From contig DRQG01000003.1 in NCBI GenBank assembly GCA_011369465.1, forward strand, positions 1-46,457: a stretch of 46,457 nt of DNA, given 5' to 3'. Source of the DNA: Caldithrix abyssi (GTDB lineage: Bacteria; Calditrichota; Calditrichia; Calditrichales; Calditrichaceae). Under the pieces are notes generated by a model. The model was not told where the DNA came from, ran no database searches, and saw only the letters and a program-made list of their open reading frames with translations. This document shows positions 34,168-42,595 of the stretch, piece after piece. Made by a program: the position numbers and the translations under genes. Numbering within the stretch: the first letter of the stretch is position 1; every line of letters begins with the position of its first letter.

Positions 34168-35505
34168 TTATCCGCTAAGCAGTTTTGCTTCCGCTTCCGC
34201 CACTTTTTTAAAAGGGAATCCATCCCGGACCTGCCGCCAGATTTCGGCCAGGCGACGGTTGGGCAGATTATCTTTACTGCCGATATGCGTATGTACTAAG
34301 GCATTCGGCTTCACAAAGGCACCGCTTTCCACCCGTTTGCCAACCTGCCGGTAGGCTTCTCGAAATGGTATGCCCTGCTTGATCAATTTATTAACAGCAT
34401 CCACTGTAAACAGATACGTGTATTTTTCTTCTTCGAGGATATTTTCCCGTATTTGTATATGCGGTAGAACATGGGTGAGAATGTTCAGACACTCCTGCGC
34501 ATCAAAAAGAGCGGGCAGGAAGCGTTCCTTTATGAGCTGCAAATCACGGTGATAGCCGGAAGGCAGATTGGCCTGGATGAGCATGATTTCGTTAGGCAGC
34601 GCTTTTAAACGGTTGCAGCGCGCCCGGACGATTTCGAACACATCGGGATTCTTTTTATGCGGCATGATGCTGGAACCGGTGGTAACGCTATCCGGAAAAG
34701 AAATGAAAGCAAAGTTTTGCGACAAATACAAGGTAATATCCATAGCCAGCCGTCCCAGCGTTTCGGCCAGAGAAGACAAAGCCTGGCTGACGATCCGTTC
34801 CACTCGTCCACGCCCCATTTGAGCATAGACCACATTGTAATCCAGATCGTCAAATCCCAGCAGTTCGGTAGTCATTTGCCGGTCGATGGGAAAGGAAGAA
34901 CCGTAACCGGCCGCCGAACCGAGCGGATTTTTATTTACAATCGTGTAAGCGGTTTGTAACTGCCGTAAATCATCAATTAAACTCTCGGCGTAGGCGCCAA
35001 ACCACAGACCGAAGGATGACGGCATGGCCACCTGTAAATGGGTGTAACCCGGTAAAAGAGCGTCTTTGTGTTTGTCGCTTAATTGTATCAAAACCTCAAA
35101 AAGCCCGGACGCTTGGGTAACAATATCCGCCAAACGGGCGCGGGTAAACAGTTTTATATCCAATAGAACCTGATCGTTGCGCGAACGTCCGGTGTGGATT
35201 TTCTTTCCGGCCTCGCCTGCGCGTTCGGTCAGCAAAAGTTCAATTTGTGAATGAATGTCTTCCACGCCTTCATCAATGGTAAAATCATTTTGCTCGATTT
35301 GCCGGTAGATTTCCCGCAGGGCATCCCGCAAGCTCGACCATTCCTTTTCGGTAATTAAATTTACGGCCTGCAACATGGCGCCGTGAGCCAGCGAACCGAG
35401 CACATCGTATTTGGCCAGCAGCACATCCAGGTCGCGGTCTTTGCCTACCGTAAAGGCTTCCACCGCTTTGTCCAGCTCGGCGTTTTTTTGCCAGAGTTTT
35501 TTCAT
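34168..35505 (-). CDS. argH: Argininosuccinate lyase
   Basis: A 445-residue fumarase/aspartase-superfamily lyase. The signature GSSIMPHKKNPDVFE holds the catalytic serine loop, and HTGRSRNDQV and LPGYTHLQVAMP are also present. It splits argininosuccinate into arginine and fumarate, the last step of arginine synthesis. The start is ATG 35505 with AAAGGTG about 7 nt upstream; an in-frame GTG at 35514 lies inside that site. It is 100 nt downstream of the M20 deacetylase gene and about 32 nt upstream of the gltB start, all on one strand. Confidence 0.96.
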   Translation of the reverse strand: MKKLWQKNAELDKAVEAFTVGKDRDLDVLLAKYDVLGSLAHGAMLQAVNLITEKEWSSLRDALREIYRQIEQNDFTIDEGVEDIHSQIELLLTERAGEAGKKIHTGRSRNDQVLLDIKLFTRARLADIVTQASGLFEVLIQLSDKHKDALLPGYTHLQVAMPSSFGLWFGAYAESLIDDLRQLQTAYTIVNKNPLGSAAGYGSSFPIDRQMTTELLGFDDLDYNVVYAQMGRGRVERIVSQALSSLAETLGRLAMDITLYLSQNFAFISFPDSVTTGSSIMPHKKNPDVFEIVRARCNRLKALPNEIMLIQANLPSGYHRDLQLIKERFLPALFDAQECLNILTHVLPHIQIRENILEEEKYTYLFTVDAVNKLIKQGIPFREAYRQVGKRVESGAFVKPNALVHTHIGSKDNLPNRRLAEIWRQVRDGFPFKKVAEAEAKLLSG

Positions 35506-35605
35506 TTTAAACACCTTTATTGCTTGTTTACCAAAAAAGGCCTATCCCGCGCCACTGGCTATTTCAGTTTCTTTTTAGCCACCGAATCACACCGAAAATC
35601 ACGGA

Positions 35606-36697
35606 TTAGGGGACGGTATGCGGTATTATGGTAAAAAACCGCTCCAACAGTTTTATATAGCCCTCTACCCCCTGCCGGATTTCTTCCGGATAGACAAACT
35701 CGTCCGCCGTATGCGAGCGTTCGGACATACCGGGACCGATTTTTACCGAGGGCGCATCGATAAGCGACTGATCCGACAAGGTCGGTGAACCGAAGGTATT
35801 CATGTTTAACGAACGCGCCGCCTCCACAAGCGGATGTTGCGGATCAATGGATGAGGGTTTTAAGCTTAACGATACGGAATCGATTTCACATTTTATATGT
35901 TTTTTAATTGTTTCCAATACCTGTTCGTTGGTATAGGCATCGGTCATGCGGATATCTACCGTAAAATCACAGACGTCCGGTATCACATTGTGCTGGGAAC
36001 CGGCGTTGATGATGGTAACGGTCATTTTTACCGGGCCGAGAAAGGAAGATTCCCTGGCAAAACGGTAGTTACGAAACCAGTTGATATCCTGTATGGCTTT
36101 ATAGATGGCGTTCTCTCCTACGTCGCGGGCGGCATGACCGCTTTTGCCGTGGGCTTTGCAGCGCAGCACCATCAGACCTTTTTCCGCCACGGCTAACTGC
36201 ATTCCGGTCGGCTCTCCGACAACGGCCAGATCGATCGGACCAAATTCGTCCAATACGGAACGCAAACCTTTCTTGCCCGAAGTTTCTTCTTCTGCCGTGG
36301 CGGCCATGATGATATTGAAAGGAAGGCGTTCCGCATCATAAAAATAGACAAACGCAGCCAACAGGCTGACCAGCGGCGCGCCGGCGTCGTTGCTGCCCAG
36401 GCCGATTAACTTTCCTTCCTGCTCTGTTGGCGTAAAGGGATCAAACGTCCACTTGGTATTGGGTTTTACCGTATCGTGGTGTGAATTCAACAACAGCGTG
36501 GGCTTTTCCTTATCGAAATAGCGGTTAACGGCCCAGACGTTGTTGTCTTTTCGGCGGACGGGAATGTTCTTTTCCTCCAAATAGACGCTGATACGCTGCG
36601 CCGTTTTATCCTCCTGCCCGCTGAAGGAAGGCAGGGCAATCAGGTCTTTCAACAGAGCCGTAGCCTGTGCCGTTAGTGCGGTTATATCGGGTTTCAT
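35606..36697 (-). CDS. M20 family acyl-amino-acid deacylase (ArgE/DapE/LysK-like)
   Basis: A 363-residue zinc peptidase of family M20. The metal and catalytic residues are H73-x-D75 in LLNSHHDTV, D104 in GLGSNDAGAP, E136-E138 in TAEEETSGK, and a C-terminal histidine in SERSHTADE. The dimerisation domain lies between. In the arginine operon it most likely removes the N-acyl group from acetylornithine or, as in some Bacteroidota, from acetylcitrulline. Context alone cannot tell which, and N-succinyl intermediates are also possible. Its ATG overlaps the argB stop by 4 bases (ATGA). Confidence 0.88.
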   Translation of the reverse strand: MKPDITALTAQATALLKDLIALPSFSGQEDKTAQRISVYLEEKNIPVRRKDNNVWAVNRYFDKEKPTLLLNSHHDTVKPNTKWTFDPFTPTEQEGKLIGLGSNDAGAPLVSLLAAFVYFYDAERLPFNIIMAATAEEETSGKKGLRSVLDEFGPIDLAVVGEPTGMQLAVAEKGLMVLRCKAHGKSGHAARDVGENAIYKAIQDINWFRNYRFARESSFLGPVKMTVTIINAGSQHNVIPDVCDFTVDIRMTDAYTNEQVLETIKKHIKCEIDSVSLSLKPSSIDPQHPLVEAARSLNMNTFGSPTLSDQSLIDAPSVKIGPGMSERSHTADEFVYPEEIRQGVEGYIKLLERFFTIIPHTVP

Positions 36698-37473
36698 AAT
36701 ACGATCCTCGTTCCTTCCCCAACGCTGTCAATTTTATCAAAGCGGGTGATGAATACTTCATCCGCGCCTGCGTTCAAGGCCATAAAGGCATTGTCCAGCT
36801 TGGGCATCATACCGTTATTGATGATATTTTCTGCTTTCAGGCGCAGATAGCTTTGACGGTCAAGTTCTTTGATGAGCGACCTTTCATTATTCACATCTTT
36901 TAGCACACCTATTTTTTCGAAGGCAAAAATAAGCCGCGTATGATACAAAGCAGAAAGCGCCGCAGCCATTTCCGAGGCGATCGTATCGGCATTGGTGTTG
37001 AGCATCTGCCCGCTGCCGTCATGGGTGAGGGCGCAAAGCACCGGCACAAACCCGGCTTGTATGATTTTCATCAGATTTTCTCTATTAACTTGTTTGACGT
37101 CTCCAACCAAGCCATAATCGATTTCGCCAACCGGCCGTTTTTCGGCTAAAAGGATACCGGCATCCGCCCCGCTCAGCCCGATGGCCGGGCAGCGCAAGGC
37201 CTGTAAGGCGGCCACAATCTTTTTGTTTTCCAGTCCGGCATAAACCATCAGCGCGGCGTCCAATGTCTGCGCATCGGTTATGCGGCGACCGTTAACCATT
37301 TGCGGCCGGATACCCAATCGGTGAAGAAGACCGTCTAACTTTGTTCCTCCGCCATGTACCAAAATCTTCAAGCCGTTTATTCGTGCAAACAGCTCCAGCG
37401 CCTTCGACAAATCCGACTTGTTTTCCAGCACCTTCCCGCCGATTTTTATGATTGTAATTTGTTGTTTTTTCAT
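36694..37473 (-). CDS. argB: Acetylglutamate kinase
   Basis: A 259-residue amino-acid kinase. IIKIGGKVLE and LVHGGGTKLDGLL form the nucleotide/phosphate loops, VNGRRITDAQTLDAALMVYAG is the NAG-kinase signature region, and LSGADAGILLA and LNTNADTIASEMAAAL follow. It phosphorylates N-acetylglutamate, or an N-acyl analogue, the first committed activation step. It lacks the N-terminal helix of arginine-inhibited hexameric NAG kinases, so feedback control by that route is unlikely. It is 94 nt downstream of argC and coupled to the M20 gene by an ATGA overlap. Confidence 0.93.
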   Translation of the reverse strand: MKKQQITIIKIGGKVLENKSDLSKALELFARINGLKILVHGGGTKLDGLLHRLGIRPQMVNGRRITDAQTLDAALMVYAGLENKKIVAALQALRCPAIGLSGADAGILLAEKRPVGEIDYGLVGDVKQVNRENLMKIIQAGFVPVLCALTHDGSGQMLNTNADTIASEMAAALSALYHTRLIFAFEKIGVLKDVNNERSLIKELDRQSYLRLKAENIINNGMMPKLDNAFMALNAGADEVFITRFDKIDSVGEGTRIVL

Positions 37474-37567: not shown

Positions 37568-38536
37568 TTAAAACCCGCTGCCTTTTAACTCCAGCCCTGC
37601 CGTTTCCTCTAAGCCGAAAATCAGATTCATATTCTGCACCGCCTGACCGGAGGCGCCTTTGAGCAGATTGTCAATGACGCTGACGATGAGCAGTTGATCG
37701 TCCTGTTTATCCAAATACAAAAAGGCTTTGTTGGTGTTGACCACCTGCTTTACATCCGGGTTCTCATCCACCACCGTTACAAAAGGATGCGCGGCATAAT
37801 AATTAATGTATTCCTGTTTAATCTCCTGCAAATCCCCTTCCACCGAAGTGTACACAGCGGACAGGATACCGCGCGTAAAATTACCGCGGAATGGCAGAAA
37901 ACGGATATCGGGCAAGGCGGATTTTTGCGCTGCTTTCAGCGTCTCGCGGACTTCATCCAGATGCTGATGCCGGAACGGCTTGTACAGGGAAATATTGGAA
38001 TCCCGCCAGCTAAAATGCGTGGTTGCCGTTGGCTGCTGCCCCGCCCCCGTGGAACCGGTTATGCCGCTGACATGCACCGGCTGCGTTAACATACTGCGTC
38101 CGGCCAGCGGCAGCAGAGCCAGCTCGATGGAGGTGGCGAAACAACCGGGATTGGCGATATTTGCTGCATTTTTGATTTGCTCGCGATAAGCCTCCGGCAA
38201 CCCATAGACAAACGAGCGGGACGGATGCGTTGTAAAGCGAAAATCGCGGCTTAAATCGATTATTTTTAGCGATGAAGGAACTTCGTTGTTTTGAAAAAAA
38301 CGCTGCGATTCGCCGTGCCCCATACATAAAAAAAGCACATCCGAATCGAATACCGGCTCTTTTCTGAAAAGCAATTCCGTCTCACCGGTTAAATCGCGAT
38401 GCGCGGTATAAACCGCTTTACCGGCCTGACTGCGGCTGCTTACAAAAACAATTTCCACCCCGGGATGCCGCAGCAGAAGACGCAGCAGTTCACCGCCGGT
38501 ATAACCCGCGCCGCCTACTATGCCCGCTCTAATCAT
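37568..38536 (-). CDS. argC: N-acetyl-gamma-glutamyl-phosphate reductase
   Basis: A 322-residue enzyme with NADP-binding GGAGYTGGELLRLLLRHP at the start, the active cysteine C132 in ANPGCFATS, and HQHLDEVRETL toward the C-terminus. It reduces acylglutamyl phosphate to the semialdehyde. Its start overlaps the argG stop by 8 bases, so translation is probably coupled. The next enzyme of the classical pathway (ArgD aminotransferase) is not encoded in the window. Confidence 0.96.
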   Translation of the reverse strand: MIRAGIVGGAGYTGGELLRLLLRHPGVEIVFVSSRSQAGKAVYTAHRDLTGETELLFRKEPVFDSDVLFLCMGHGESQRFFQNNEVPSSLKIIDLSRDFRFTTHPSRSFVYGLPEAYREQIKNAANIANPGCFATSIELALLPLAGRSMLTQPVHVSGITGSTGAGQQPTATTHFSWRDSNISLYKPFRHQHLDEVRETLKAAQKSALPDIRFLPFRGNFTRGILSAVYTSVEGDLQEIKQEYINYYAAHPFVTVVDENPDVKQVVNTNKAFLYLDKQDDQLLIVSVIDNLLKGASGQAVQNMNLIFGLEETAGLELKGSGF

Positions 38537-39731
38537 GTTCTTTGTCCTTCCGGTTTACGCTGCGGTAAATACGCATCGGGTTGGCTAAAATTTTAGCAAA
38601 GCCCCGCACATCATCTCCCGTCCAGCCCAGATTCATTTCACCGTAAGCGCCGAATTTCGCGGACATTAAATCATTGGGACTCTCAACGCCTTCTATGCGG
38701 AAGGTGTCGGGCAACAGTTCGATAAAAACCGTGCCGTTGACCGTTTGCTGGCTGTGTTCCAGAAATTGTTCGATATCGCGCATTACCGGATCAAAATAGC
38801 CGCCTTCGTGCAGCATCATGCCGTACCAGTTGGCCAGTTGGTCTTTCCAGTACAACTGCCATTTGGTGAGCGTGTGTTTTTCCAACGCCTGGTGGGCTTT
38901 GATTAACAGGATGGGCGCAGCGGCCTCAAAACCGACCCGTCCCTTAATGCCGATGATGGTATCGCCCACGTGAATATCCCGCCCGATGCCGAAAGGAGCG
39001 GCCAGTCTATTCAAAGCGGTTACGGCTTCCACAGGCGAATCAAAATGTCTATCATTGAATCCGCTGAAATTGCCCCGCTCAAAATGAATTTTCACTTTTT
39101 CCGCAGGCGCGGAAGTTTTCGGCGTGGGGTAGGCTTCTTCCGGCAAGGGCAGATGCGAGGTCAGCGTTTCCTTACCGCCCACCGAGGTGCCCCACAAACC
39201 CTGATTGACGGAATATTGCATTTTTTCCCAGTTCTGCCGTATTCCGTGTGCCGCCAGATATTCGATTTCCTCTTCCCGCGACAGCCGCTTATCCCGGATG
39301 GGGGTTAGTATTTCCGTATCCGGCAAAAGGGTGTGAAAAATCATATCGAAGCGCACCTGGTCGTTGCCTGCCCCGGTACTGCCGTGGGCTACATAATCTG
39401 CGCCGATGGTTTGCGCGTAATCGGCAATGGCAACCGCCTGAAAAACCCGCTCGGCGCTGACCGACAGAGGATAGGTACCGTTCCGCAACACATTGCCGTA
39501 AATCAGATAGCGCACACAGTCATTGTAAAACCGTTCCGTTACATCCACGGTTTTGTGTTTTTTTACACCCAGGGCATAGGCCTTCTTCTCAATTTCTTCG
39601 GTTTCTTCGGCCGAAAAGCCGCCGGTATTGACCAACACGCTGTGTACTTCCAGATTTTTTTCTTTAGCCAAATGCACCGCGCAATAGGATGTATCCAGTC
39701 CGCCGCTAAAGGCTAACACTACTTTTTCCAT
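38529..39731 (-). CDS. argG: Argininosuccinate synthase
   Basis: A 400-residue ATP-dependent ligase. The PP-loop is VLAFSGGLDTSY, followed by VAHGSTGAGNDQVRFD and, later, VNQGLWGTSVGGKE and LPLPEEAYPT. It joins citrulline and aspartate. The start chosen is ATG 39731, with GAGGGA upstream and the PP-loop at the usual distance; the 33-residue extension in the same frame is unlike the family. It overlaps the end of the GNAT gene by 26 bases, which links it to the operon head. Confidence 0.95.
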   Translation of the reverse strand: MEKVVLAFSGGLDTSYCAVHLAKEKNLEVHSVLVNTGGFSAEETEEIEKKAYALGVKKHKTVDVTERFYNDCVRYLIYGNVLRNGTYPLSVSAERVFQAVAIADYAQTIGADYVAHGSTGAGNDQVRFDMIFHTLLPDTEILTPIRDKRLSREEEIEYLAAHGIRQNWEKMQYSVNQGLWGTSVGGKETLTSHLPLPEEAYPTPKTSAPAEKVKIHFERGNFSGFNDRHFDSPVEAVTALNRLAAPFGIGRDIHVGDTIIGIKGRVGFEAAAPILLIKAHQALEKHTLTKWQLYWKDQLANWYGMMLHEGGYFDPVMRDIEQFLEHSQQTVNGTVFIELLPDTFRIEGVESPNDLMSAKFGAYGEMNLGWTGDDVRGFAKILANPMRIYRSVNRKDKEHD

Positions 39732-40320
39732 TGAATCCCTCTTCCTTTTGCATTTCTGCCTTTTCAGCCGGATCGTACAGCATGGCCGTACATAAACAAT
39801 GCTTGTAATCCGTGCGCTGCAAAATATCAAAGTTTACACAGCTTTGACAACCGGCCCAAAAATCCTCATCGTCGGTCAACTGATCGAAAGCCACCGGCCT
39901 ATAACCTAACATATAATTAATTTTCAAAACCGCCGGGCTGGTGGTGATGCCAAACAGCTTTGCCTTTGGGAATTTTTTCCGCGACAACTGAAAAGCCGCT
40001 TCCTTTATCCGCTTGCCCAATCCCATCGAACGAAATTTCAGCGCCACAATCAAGCCGGAATTAGCGATAAAATCCTTGTCCTTTCCCCAGGATTCGATAT
40101 AGCAAAATCCGGCAAAGTCTCCGCTTTCGGCTAAGGCAATAACGGATTTACCCTGTAAAATTTTTTCTCGAATGTAGGACGGTTCCCGTTTGGCGATACC
40201 AGTACCCCGTTTTTTAGCGGCTTCTTCAATAACCTGACAGATTTCTTCAGCATATTTGATATGTTGTTTGCCGGCTGTATAAATATTAATTTTTGATATT
40301 CCCTTTTGCAGATATAACAT
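39706..40320 (-). CDS. GNAT N-acetyltransferase, probable first arginine enzyme (acetylglutamate synthase-like)
   Basis: A 204-residue GNAT-fold protein. The acetyl-CoA loop is RSMGLGKRI (97-105), preceded by beta-strand GLIVALKF. A cysteine set near the C-terminus (C158, C161, C175, C177; spacing C-x2-C-x13-C-x-C) could hold a metal. As first gene of the arg operon it is the best candidate for making N-acetylglutamate, a role known for short GNAT proteins in phyla that lack the ArgA or ArgJ types. The start is ATG 40320 with GGAGGT (40324-40329); a longer TTG frame was rejected. Function is inferred from context and fold. Confidence 0.82.
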   Translation of the reverse strand: MLYLQKGISKINIYTAGKQHIKYAEEICQVIEEAAKKRGTGIAKREPSYIREKILQGKSVIALAESGDFAGFCYIESWGKDKDFIANSGLIVALKFRSMGLGKRIKEAAFQLSRKKFPKAKLFGITTSPAVLKINYMLGYRPVAFDQLTDDEDFWAGCQSCVNFDILQRTDYKHCLCTAMLYDPAEKAEMQKEEGFNGKSSVSL

Positions 40321-40323
40321 ACT

Positions 40324-40329
40324 ACCTCC
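40324..40329 (-). promoter_or_regulatory. Ribosome-binding site of the arg operon's first gene
   Basis: GGAGGT on the minus strand, 3 nt before ATG 40320. It fixes the start of the GNAT gene and marks the end of the leader region. Confidence 0.8.
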
Positions 40330-40374
40330 GCTGTATATTTTTAATTTTATAATTTTGAAAGATGAAAATGTGGT

Positions 40375-40403
40375 TTTTGGCCCGGATGGCCTGCGCCCCA
40401 AAA
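40375..40403 (-). promoter_or_regulatory. GC-rich hairpin candidate in the arg leader
   Basis: In the minus-strand RNA, UUUUGG (40403-40398) can pair with CCAAAA (40380-40375). Inside this span a GGCC/GGCC pair around AUCCG is possible as an alternative. No U-run follows, so it is not a textbook terminator. It starts 14 nt after the stop codon of the arginine-rich leader frame, where an attenuator structure would be expected. Confidence 0.35.
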
Positions 40404-40417
40404 GGCTAAGGATGGCT

Positions 40418-40495
40418 TTATCGTCGAAATCGTCGATTGGACGACAAGGCAGGGATACTACACGGTATGGTACATGAGATGATTATTTCTAGCAT
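40418..40495 (-). CDS. Candidate arginine leader peptide (25 codons, ends in four CGA codons)
   Basis: A short frame from ATG 40495 to TAA 40418 encodes 25 residues beginning MLEIIISC and ending SSNRRFRR. The last five codons are CGA CGA TTT CGA CGA, then stop. It lies about 98 nt upstream of the first arginine-biosynthesis gene on the same strand. That is what a ribosome-mediated attenuator leader would look like: starvation for charged tRNA-Arg would stall the ribosome at the end of the frame. Weak points are the absence of a clear ribosome-binding site near 40495, the fact that the frame is open further upstream, and the lack of a U-tract terminator. Also possible is a chance run. The call rests on position and codon content. 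Confidence 0.45.
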   Translation of the reverse strand: MLEIIISCTIPCSIPALSSNRRFRR

Positions 40496-40535
40496 AACGT
40501 AATTTATTTGGTTCCGTTCAATCTCTTTTTTTGCG

Positions 40536-40563
40536 AATTTACAATATATTTTTAAATATGCAA
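40536..40563 (-). promoter_or_regulatory. Possible promoter of the arg operon
   Basis: On the minus strand TTGCAT (40563-40558) and TAAATT (40541-40536) are separated by 16 nt, a fair match to -35 and -10 boxes in a very AT-rich stretch. The predicted start would fall near 40529, about 33 nt before the leader ATG. No clear ArgR box was seen. Confidence 0.3.
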
Positions 40564-40819
40564 ATATTTTTATACACTTTATTGTATATTTATAATATAA
40601 TTTCCGTTTTATTTTGTGTGCTTCATATTTGTGTGTTAAGGATTTCCATTGACTCCTAAGTTGATATATATTACATTTTATCATGGTAAAGCTGCTGTTC
40701 ATTAAAAGAGCGCTTCAAATCAATATTCATCTAAATTTATCGTACCAAAAAAATAATCCGAGAACAGCGTGGGGAAACATCTTCGTAAAAACACACTCTA
40801 AACAGCGGAGGAAAACTGT
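40564..40819. other. AT-rich divergent intergenic region
   Basis: Between the arg leader (minus strand) and the beta-helix gene (plus strand). It is strongly AT-rich, with a continued minus-strand open frame (to 40702) of low-complexity Lys/Tyr/Ile composition that I do not regard as a gene. It should hold promoters for both directions; none for the plus strand could be assigned. Confidence 0.45.
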
Positions 40820-42595
40820 ATGCAAATTATACTAACGCCCATTTTTATAATATTTCTGCTTGTAAGCCTCAGAGCGGAAACATACAGCGTCGGGCCTTCC
40901 CAAGATTACAACGATTTGGGAGCGGTTCCCTGGCTTACCTTAGTTCCCGGCGATACGGTCCTTATTCATTGGCGTGATGAACCGTACGCCTCGAAAATCT
41001 TTGTTCGGGTTTCCGGCACGGCAGAAAACCCGATCGTTATAAAAGGCCTTCCAAATGATAAGGGGGAGCTTCCTGTTATCACCGGGCAAAACGCCACTAC
41101 AAACGCTCAGTTTGCCGGCTACTTTAGCAGCGAATGGACTGAAGACCTGGGTTTGTTTCTTATCCATCGCAACAATAATGTGCCGCCCTATGACGATGAA
41201 TCATATAAACCCAAACATCTTATCTTTGAATACCTGGAACTAACGGGAGTTAAACCGGAAAACACCTTTACCGACCAGTTTGGCAATACGCGTAATTATA
41301 ACAGTTTTTCTTCAGCCATACATGCGTTGGAATCGGACAACCTGACCATACGCCACTGCCGTATTCATGACAATGCCCAGGGAATATTCACCAACAGCAA
41401 CGGCAACACAGAAGGATACATATCCAGAAACACACTGATCGAATACAATGAAATCTGGGGCAACGGTAATACGGACGAAGACGGTAGGGAACATAACATT
41501 TATATACAATCTGCCGGTACAATCATTCAGTACAATAAATTCGGCAGCTTGCGCTCCGGATCGCAGGGCGCCAATATAAAAGACCGCTCCTCCGGAACCA
41601 TCATCCGTTATAACTGGATAGAAGGCGCGGCTCGCATTTTGGATTTGGTGGAAACCGAAGACGCCTGGGAAATTATCATGTTTGAACCTGACTACCACGA
41701 CGTTTATGTTTACGGAAACGTTATTATAAACGATATGACAAAATCGCCTTTCGCGACCAATATGATCCATTTCGGCTTCGATAATTCTCCTGTAGAGGCC
41801 AAACGAGGAACCTTGTTTTTTTATAATAATACGGTATATATAAAAGGAGATAAAGATATCTACTGGTATGTCCGCCTTTTTGATGTAACGTCGGATAACG
41901 ATCCTGATACGGAAGAGGGGACAGTGGCAATGTATAATAACATTATTCATAAGGAAGGAACAACTAATCTTGAGCTGATGCGCGACTCCGGTACGCTTAA
42001 TTTTTATGGGAATAATTGGATCCGGGAGGGATACGCTGAGCTGGGATACCGAGCAACCGCGCAGATAAATTATCCCACCCCACCGATTGTCGGGACAGAT
42101 CCGGGCTTTAAGGATGTCTCCAATGAAGATTTTACTCTGTTGGAATCCTCGGTTTGTATAGATACGGCCGGGACATTACCGGACAGCGTGGAATCCCGTT
42201 ATCCGGTTGAATATGAATACGTAAAACATACTTCCCGAAAAAACCGATTGTTGTCCGGAAGCAGATATGATCTTGGTGCCTTCGAATATGCAAACCAAAC
42301 CGGAATTGAGTTTGATAAAGAATTACTTATTACCGATTACCGGCTGCTTCAGAATTATCCCAACCCGTTTAATCCGATTACAGCTATCAGCTATCGGCTA
42401 TCGGCTGTCAGCGATGTGAAGTTGACGGTTTATAATGTTTTGGGGCAAAAGATTCGAACATTGGTTAATGAAAAACAATCGGCGGGGAAATACCGGGTAA
42501 GCTTTGACGCTTCCGGGCTGGCCGGCGGCGTCTATTTTTACCGCTTACAGGCCGGAGATTTTACAGCAACCCGCAAGATGATTTTGATGCAATAA
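40820..42595 (+). CDS. Secreted right-handed parallel beta-helix protein with type IX-like C-terminal sorting domain
   Basis: A 591-residue exported protein. A signal peptide (MQIILTPIFIIFLLVSLRAE) is followed by a beta-helix (about 30-480) with repeated IxxNxI/YN turns such as HCRIHDNAQGIFTN, YNEIWGNGNT and YNNIIHKEG, as in pectate-lyase-like and chondroitinase-B-like folds. The tail is a sorting domain: LLQNYPNPFNP, VYNVLGQKIRTLVNE, GVYFYRLQAGDFTATRKMIL. The domain implies export by the type IX system and surface attachment or release. A glycan substrate is likely, but lyase residues cannot be assigned. The start is fixed by GGAGG 9 nt upstream. A heptamer tandem repeat lies within the sorting domain. 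Confidence 0.88.
   Translation: MQIILTPIFIIFLLVSLRAETYSVGPSQDYNDLGAVPWLTLVPGDTVLIHWRDEPYASKIFVRVSGTAENPIVIKGLPNDKGELPVITGQNATTNAQFAGYFSSEWTEDLGLFLIHRNNNVPPYDDESYKPKHLIFEYLELTGVKPENTFTDQFGNTRNYNSFSSAIHALESDNLTIRHCRIHDNAQGIFTNSNGNTEGYISRNTLIEYNEIWGNGNTDEDGREHNIYIQSAGTIIQYNKFGSLRSGSQGANIKDRSSGTIIRYNWIEGAARILDLVETEDAWEIIMFEPDYHDVYVYGNVIINDMTKSPFATNMIHFGFDNSPVEAKRGTLFFYNNTVYIKGDKDIYWYVRLFDVTSDNDPDTEEGTVAMYNNIIHKEGTTNLELMRDSGTLNFYGNNWIREGYAELGYRATAQINYPTPPIVGTDPGFKDVSNEDFTLLESSVCIDTAGTLPDSVESRYPVEYEYVKHTSRKNRLLSGSRYDLGAFEYANQTGIEFDKELLITDYRLLQNYPNPFNPITAISYRLSAVSDVKLTVYNVLGQKIRTLVNEKQSAGKYRVSFDASGLAGGVYFYRLQAGDFTATRKMILMQ
42382..42409 (+). repeat. Heptamer tandem repeat inside the sorting-domain coding sequence
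   Basis: Four consecutive 7-bp units, AGCTATC, AGCTATC, GGCTATC and GGCTGTC, with a decayed fifth (AGCGATG). They encode the AISYRLSAVS stretch just after NYPNPFNP. Because 7 is not a multiple of 3, gain or loss of one unit would shift the frame of the remaining 60 or so codons. A two-unit ATTACCG repeat lies shortly upstream, near 42334. Confidence 0.8.

Follow-up and report, generated by a model that had tools for sequence, protein, structure and literature searches.

We analyzed a 46,457-nt stretch of a Caldithrix abyssi assembly (contig DRQG01000003.1; hereafter the window), in which an arginine operon with the gene order GNAT-argG-argC-argB-M20-argH lies on the minus strand (Table 1). 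It is preceded by a short open reading frame (ORF) of 25 codons, ATG CTA GAA ... AAT CGA CGA TTT CGA CGA TAA, which ends 97 nt before the GNAT start codon at 40320. This confirms the proposal of a first-pass annotation that an Arg-codon-rich frame stands ahead of the operon, and it links the frame to genes of the matching pathway.

The first gene of the operon is probably the N-acetylglutamate synthase (NAGS) of Calditrichota and Bacteroidota; its GNAT family membership is weakly but uniformly supported in 19 of 19 aligned members. The gene gives only weak Pfam and NCBIfam matches, is conserved together with argG in Calditrichota, and has high-identity counterparts in Bacteroidota.

Table 1. 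Arginine operon and upstream features in the window (an asterisk marks a stop codon)
Feature	Position	Strand	Basis or remark
TTTG upstream promoter element (predicted)	40561..40564	-	19 nt before the -7 element; spacing recurs in relatives
-7 element TAAATTCG (predicted)	40534..40541	-	38 nt before the leader ATG
Weak ArgR-box-like site TGTATAAAAATATT (tentative)	40563..40576	-	overlaps promoter; 10/12 consensus positions; P = 0.55 against shuffles
Leader peptide ORF MLEIIISCTIPCSIPALSSNRRFRR*	40418..40495	-	sequence; conserved Arg-ending leaders in relatives
Regulatory codons CGA CGA TTT CGA CGA (Arg Arg Phe Arg Arg)	40421..40435	-	sequence; CGA rarity; Arg kept with synonymous change in relatives
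Predicted hairpin UUGUCGUC (40447-40440) / GACGAUAA (40425-40418)	40418..40447	-	last Arg-Arg-stop codons in 3' arm
Small GC-rich hairpins (two) in the spacer after the leader	40406-40395 and 40391-40379	-	U-tract absent; no conservation seen in relatives
GNAT acetyltransferase, first gene	39706..40320	-	own Shine-Dalgarno GGAGG at 40329-40325
argG, argininosuccinate synthase	38529..39731	-	
argC, N-acetyl-glutamyl-phosphate reductase	37568..38536	-	semialdehyde dehydrogenase domains
argB-like amino acid kinase	36694..37473	-	
M20 peptidase family deacylase (argE-like)	35606..36697	-	
argH-like argininosuccinate lyase	34168..35514	-	

Leader frame and predicted promoter in the window

The Arg content of the leader frame stands out against several backgrounds. 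When the upstream region was dinucleotide-shuffled 300 times, no shuffle produced a short ORF matching its number of Arg codons, and of the 438 ends of short ATG-ORFs in the window, 2 have at least four Arg within the last five codons. Each of the four Arg codons of the leader is CGA, which makes up 9.4% of Arg codons among the window genes. The 171-nt leader stretch is single copy in its own genome. Its C-terminus reads NRRFRR*, lacking the final Pro usual in the leaders of relatives.

The frame is open further upstream, to an ATG at 40702, and the ATG at 40495 is the first past the predicted promoter. No Shine-Dalgarno sequence is evident at 40495, as the first-pass annotation had pointed out in objection to an attenuator. 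Leaders of relatives likewise lack one, whereas their GNAT gene usually has it; its absence is thus normal for these leaders, and the objection carries little weight.

Most same-family relatives carry TTTG-N19-TAnnTTTG upstream of the leader, with the spacing fixed at 19 nt and the leader ATG 23–47 nt further on (longer in relative L002). The TAnnTTTG box corresponds to the consensus element of Bacteroidota sigma-A promoters as quoted in PMC9723704. This predicted, conserved promoter places the transcription start upstream of the leader, which would lie between promoter and first structural gene. ArgR is encoded in this genome, and good ArgR-box matches overlap or adjoin the promoter in several relatives (L002, L004, and L011), whereas none was seen at the leader promoter of ArgR-lacking genomes. 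ArgR and the leader probably act together in this genome.

Arg-ending leaders in Calditrichota and Bacteroidota

We sampled 40 Calditrichota genomes, 20 of which have the GNAT gene. In 19 of these 20, Arg codons cluster at the C-terminus of a short ORF at the same position, which ends 69–232 nt before the gene. The first-pass annotation had looked to relatives for a verdict, and this result, together with Arg-rich frames in many Bacteroidota, went in the leader's favor. Typical C-termini are YRPRGRRRP*, LSILRRRP*, TIRRRP*, and FRFRRP*, most of them of the form ...RRRP*. The summed Arg statistic of the relatives' leaders reached 72, compared with 6.9 ± 2.7 in dinucleotide shuffles and values near zero on the opposite strand; among residues, Arg is the one strongly enriched (z = 23), and Pro comes next, far behind (z = 6).

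The Calditrichota leaders keep Arg at codons -3 and -2 while the codons switch among CGA, CGT, AGA, and AGG (CGC also occurs at -4), and some of the changes cross between the CGN box and the AGR box. Such synonymous change is the signature of selection on decoding, not on DNA sequence, and speaks indirectly for leader translation with ribosome stalling on starvation. The final residue is variable (P, S, R, or I), and the remainder of the peptide shows no conservation. In L009, the sole Calditrichota relative without an ATG-started Arg leader, an ORF that starts with TTG, MKTIQSTYRTFSNRPRPSGVSI*, may be a diverged or decayed leader.

ArgR occurs in 29 of the 40 Calditrichota genomes, including this one, and mostly coexists there with the leader. 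Two nearly complete genomes of family f2 (G016 and G019) are without ArgR and ArgR boxes and have kept the leader. The family (G015–G020) appears to be without ArgR throughout, and its two GNAT-bearing members keep the leader.

The Bacteroidota sample comprised 50 genomes with orthologous GNAT genes, with ArgR found in 14. Leaders were called in 24 of the 36 ArgR-lacking genomes, compared with 1 of the 14 that have ArgR (Fisher P = 2.9e-4, a value that ignores kinship, the genomes being non-independent samples and some of them incomplete drafts). Leader presence and ArgR absence are thus strongly associated in Bacteroidota. The single call in an ArgR-bearing genome is an isolated ORF 224 nt upstream, unlike the other leaders, and is probably spurious; 12 of the 36 ArgR-lacking genomes gave no leader call. 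The contrast drawn by the first-pass annotation between a leader and the usual control by ArgR needs to be qualified: in the Bacteroidota sampled, leaders go with a lack of ArgR, and this genome has both.

Flavobacteriia leaders end in RRRP* or RRRRP*, those of Cytophagales show other Arg clusters, and in several Bacteroidota leaders the cluster lies 5–10 codons before the stop. Four loci from Mucilaginibacter and a relative (L109, L119, L130, and L131) have leaders of 39–41 codons ending in (S/P)PRRR(P/L)(Y/F)MPRV* or similar (e.g. PRRRPYMPRV*), a layout in which the Arg run sits several codons before the stop and which differs from that of the RRRP* leaders. In ArgR-bearing Bacteroidales (L055, L059, L074, L081, and others), argR itself tends to sit directly upstream of GNAT-argG-argC, in the place of the leader; the Bacteroidales L064 and L102, in which no ArgR was detected, have Arg leaders instead.

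Outside the GNAT operon, no convincing leader was seen at argG of Calditrichota that lack the GNAT gene (L038, L039, L042, and L043), nor a convincing comparable one at the carA and OTCase loci examined. An apparent leader at a carA/OTCase locus (L211) was rejected, as the ORF lies inside the end of the preceding gene.

RNA structure around the leader stop codon

In predicted folds of the window leader, UCGUC (40444-40440) can pair with GACGA at either 40434-40430 or 40425-40421, the alternative that the first-pass annotation had described. With the second GACGA, the pairing lengthens to a helix of 8 bp that constitutes the minimum free energy (MFE) form of the leader. The fold is not more stable than those of shuffled sequences (z = -0.18). 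Downstream, the two small hairpins are followed by AAAAACC, and no intrinsic terminator (GC stem plus U-run) was found in 39700-40900, which bears out the earlier remark that a U-tract terminator is missing. Neither this region of the window nor the arg leaders at 14 related loci gave a relevant match in searches with Rfam covariance models. The global MFE fold of the window suggested that the leader might sequester the GNAT ribosome-binding site; such pairing is not consistent across relatives, and the idea was rejected.

Relatives show a different arrangement. Of 19 leaders examined, 14 have their stop codon within a hairpin whose 5' arm carries the Arg/Pro codons (e.g. GUAGACCC-UAAC-GGGUCUAC), and the hairpin's own arms pair better than swapped arms (permutation P = 0.02). 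The GUAG form of this hairpin has one site per genome, always at the arginine operon, in seven genomes. Flavobacteriia have a CCGUAAGG version together with a second hairpin in which the AGGUGNGUCC apex is conserved and some of the changes are compensatory. Neither the stop-codon hairpin nor the second Flavobacteriia hairpin is present in the window leader, where the predicted helix between the Arg-Arg-stop codons and upstream leader sequence stands in the place of the former.

The Flavobacteriia hairpin, UGGAAAU-AGGUGAGUCC-AUUUCCGC, is strongly conserved about 15–45 nt past the leader stop (loci L066, L078, L095, L106, L113, L116, L124, L125, L129, L072, and L114) and is not in Rfam. Its apex pattern occurs once per genome, at the arg operon only, in the six genomes searched, so the idea of a general amino-acid attenuator module was dropped; the hairpin looks specific to the arg operon.

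Proposed mechanism, alternatives, and known systems

Comparative sequence analysis shows the leader position, selection on the Arg codons, an upstream promoter, single-copy occurrence, and the link to an arginine operon, and with them the sensor part of the element; an arginine-sensing leader peptide is well supported. We consider it very likely that the element is a cis-acting arginine sensor, in which ribosomes read Arg-tRNA charging on the leader and thereby control the operon. Transcription would start about 35–40 nt upstream of the leader ORF, which closes with clustered Arg codons of the rare CGA type. Under a shortage of charged Arg-tRNA, the ribosome would halt on these codons and cover the Arg/stop segment, which then could not pair, and the operon would be expressed. 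With arginine plentiful, the ribosome would finish and leave, the segment would pair, in the window with the upstream helix partner and in most relatives within the stop-codon hairpin, and GNAT-argG-argC and the following genes would be expressed less. We infer leader translation, stalling, and the direction of the response, expression on starvation being the simplest polarity by analogy. As to the output step, transcription may end prematurely (through Rho or in a non-canonical way), or control may fall on translation of the GNAT gene or on decay of the RNA.

Of the ribosome-sensed arginine attenuator that the first-pass annotation had put forward, the arginine-sensing leader is supported by relatives; an attenuator in the strict sense is less secure, given that there is no intrinsic terminator and that the alternative folds are predictions. 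Because an intrinsic terminator was looked for and not found, the element is no classical trp-type attenuator, while it is a member of the broad group of amino-acid-sensing leader peptides. More broadly, we lean toward a lineage-wide attenuator without an intrinsic terminator, in which an Arg leader and a non-canonical RNA switch would together serve Calditrichota and ArgR-less Bacteroidota as the general means of arginine control at the NAGS-argG-argC operon, replacing ArgR in the latter. As part of the same reading, the switch would consist of a hairpin containing the stop codon, to which Flavobacteriia would add the second conserved hairpin with its AGGUGNGUCC apex.

Control by ArgR at the promoter alone, with an incidental Arg-rich ORF, would fit the presence of ArgR in this genome and of ArgR-box-like sites overlapping the promoter in several relatives. 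It is nevertheless very unlikely, since the Arg enrichment across relatives goes far beyond the shuffle and strand controls, the leader persists in relatives and in Bacteroidota that lack ArgR, and Arg is retained through synonymous codon changes. The fungal arginine attenuator peptide and TnaC are peptides that stall the ribosome at termination, and an Arg-rich C-terminus, typically RRRP-stop, might regulate the operon through such nascent-chain arrest, possibly aided by free arginine. The terminal position of the Arg cluster in the ORF and the Pro that often precedes the stop are in keeping with arrest, and a ribosome waiting at the stop would hold the surrounding hairpin open. Yet the final residue varies (P, S, R, or I, with RR in the window), and the remaining peptide is unconserved, in contrast to known arrest peptides. 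Several Bacteroidota leaders, moreover, have their Arg cluster 5–10 codons before the stop, and the Pro codon is also an arm of the stop hairpin, which can account for its conservation. We therefore regard arrest as unlikely.

Repetitive palindromes of the GTAG/CGTC type exist as families (PMC3733652), and the stop-region hairpin of distant relatives does begin with GTAG. That such a palindrome or another mobile repeat lies here by chance is scarcely credible, and we rejected it on the single-copy occurrence both of the hairpin (always at the arginine operon, in the seven genomes) and of the window stretch. Closer to the preferred sensor reading is Rho-coupled control, a variant of its output step and compatible with it, in which leader translation, or a ribosome stalled at the leader end, would govern the access of Rho to the untranslated spacer with no specific antiterminator structure. 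It has precedents in orf34-speF (PMC6386406) and in the terminator-less cys leaders of mycobacteria (PMC1262725). The lack of an intrinsic terminator in the window and the unconserved structure of the spacer, which in Calditrichota is slightly richer in C than in G (0.19 versus 0.15), would suit it. However, this C excess is weak, and the stop-codon and Flavobacteriia hairpins indicate a structural part in many relatives; we hold Rho-coupled control to be possible, tentatively.

Arginine operons are textbook targets of ArgR, whereas in the present case arginine synthesis in two phyla appears to be served by a leader that ribosomes read and that, among Bacteroidota, goes with the absence of ArgR. 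If true, this would suggest a way in which bacteria common in soil, sea, and gut control arginine synthesis when the known repressor is missing. Many genomes would also gain a small ORF that is not annotated, and an attenuator without a terminator would become available for study in organisms largely without Shine-Dalgarno sequences.

We found no description of this arginine leader in the literature searched (open-licence papers only), in which its target, distribution, and architecture appear undescribed. The attenuators of the trp, his, leu, and thr operons combine a leader peptide with an intrinsic terminator. The present element resembles them in being a short, translated-looking ORF with clustered end-product codons between promoter and first biosynthetic gene; it differs in its amino acid (arginine), in having no intrinsic terminator or U-tract, in the placement of the codons at the very end of the ORF, in lacking a Shine-Dalgarno sequence, and in its host lineages, Calditrichota and Bacteroidota.

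Closer in layout are the poly-cysteine short ORFs upstream of mycobacterial cys operons (PMC1262725; also Canestrari 2020, as cited in PMC9031893), which likewise have a codon run near the stop and no obvious terminator and precede a biosynthetic operon for the same amino acid. They concern cysteine, leaderless mRNAs, and another phylum, unlike the roughly 35–40 nt of 5' UTR predicted here. That mycobacterial work counts arginine genes among those controlled elsewhere at the RNA level, through T-boxes and not through leader peptides (PMC1262725). For Flavobacterium psychrophilum, clues of leader-peptide attenuation at amino-acid operons are reported in PMC9723704, a proposal similar to ours in placing leader peptides before biosynthesis operons of Bacteroidota; the main-text passages found name no arginine leader, and the arginine motif may or may not be on its list.

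Arg codons report arginine in two other upstream ORFs (uORFs). Consecutive Arg codons of orf34/speFL, upstream of speF in Salmonella, sense arginine, and ribosome position changes RNA folding (PMC6386406). That leader is long and multi-level and controls ornithine decarboxylase, not arginine synthesis, and we claim no sequence relation to it. In rbfL of Staphylococcus aureus, arginine limitation is sensed through rare Arg codons of a short uORF, as it may be in the window (PMC13009471); rbfL differs in blocking the next ribosome-binding site, in controlling the biofilm regulator rbf, and in that starvation lowers expression. ArgR with tandem ArgR boxes exerts the same arginine feedback on arg operons and is present in this genome; it differs as a protein repressor acting at DNA, and is absent from the leader-bearing Bacteroidota sampled.
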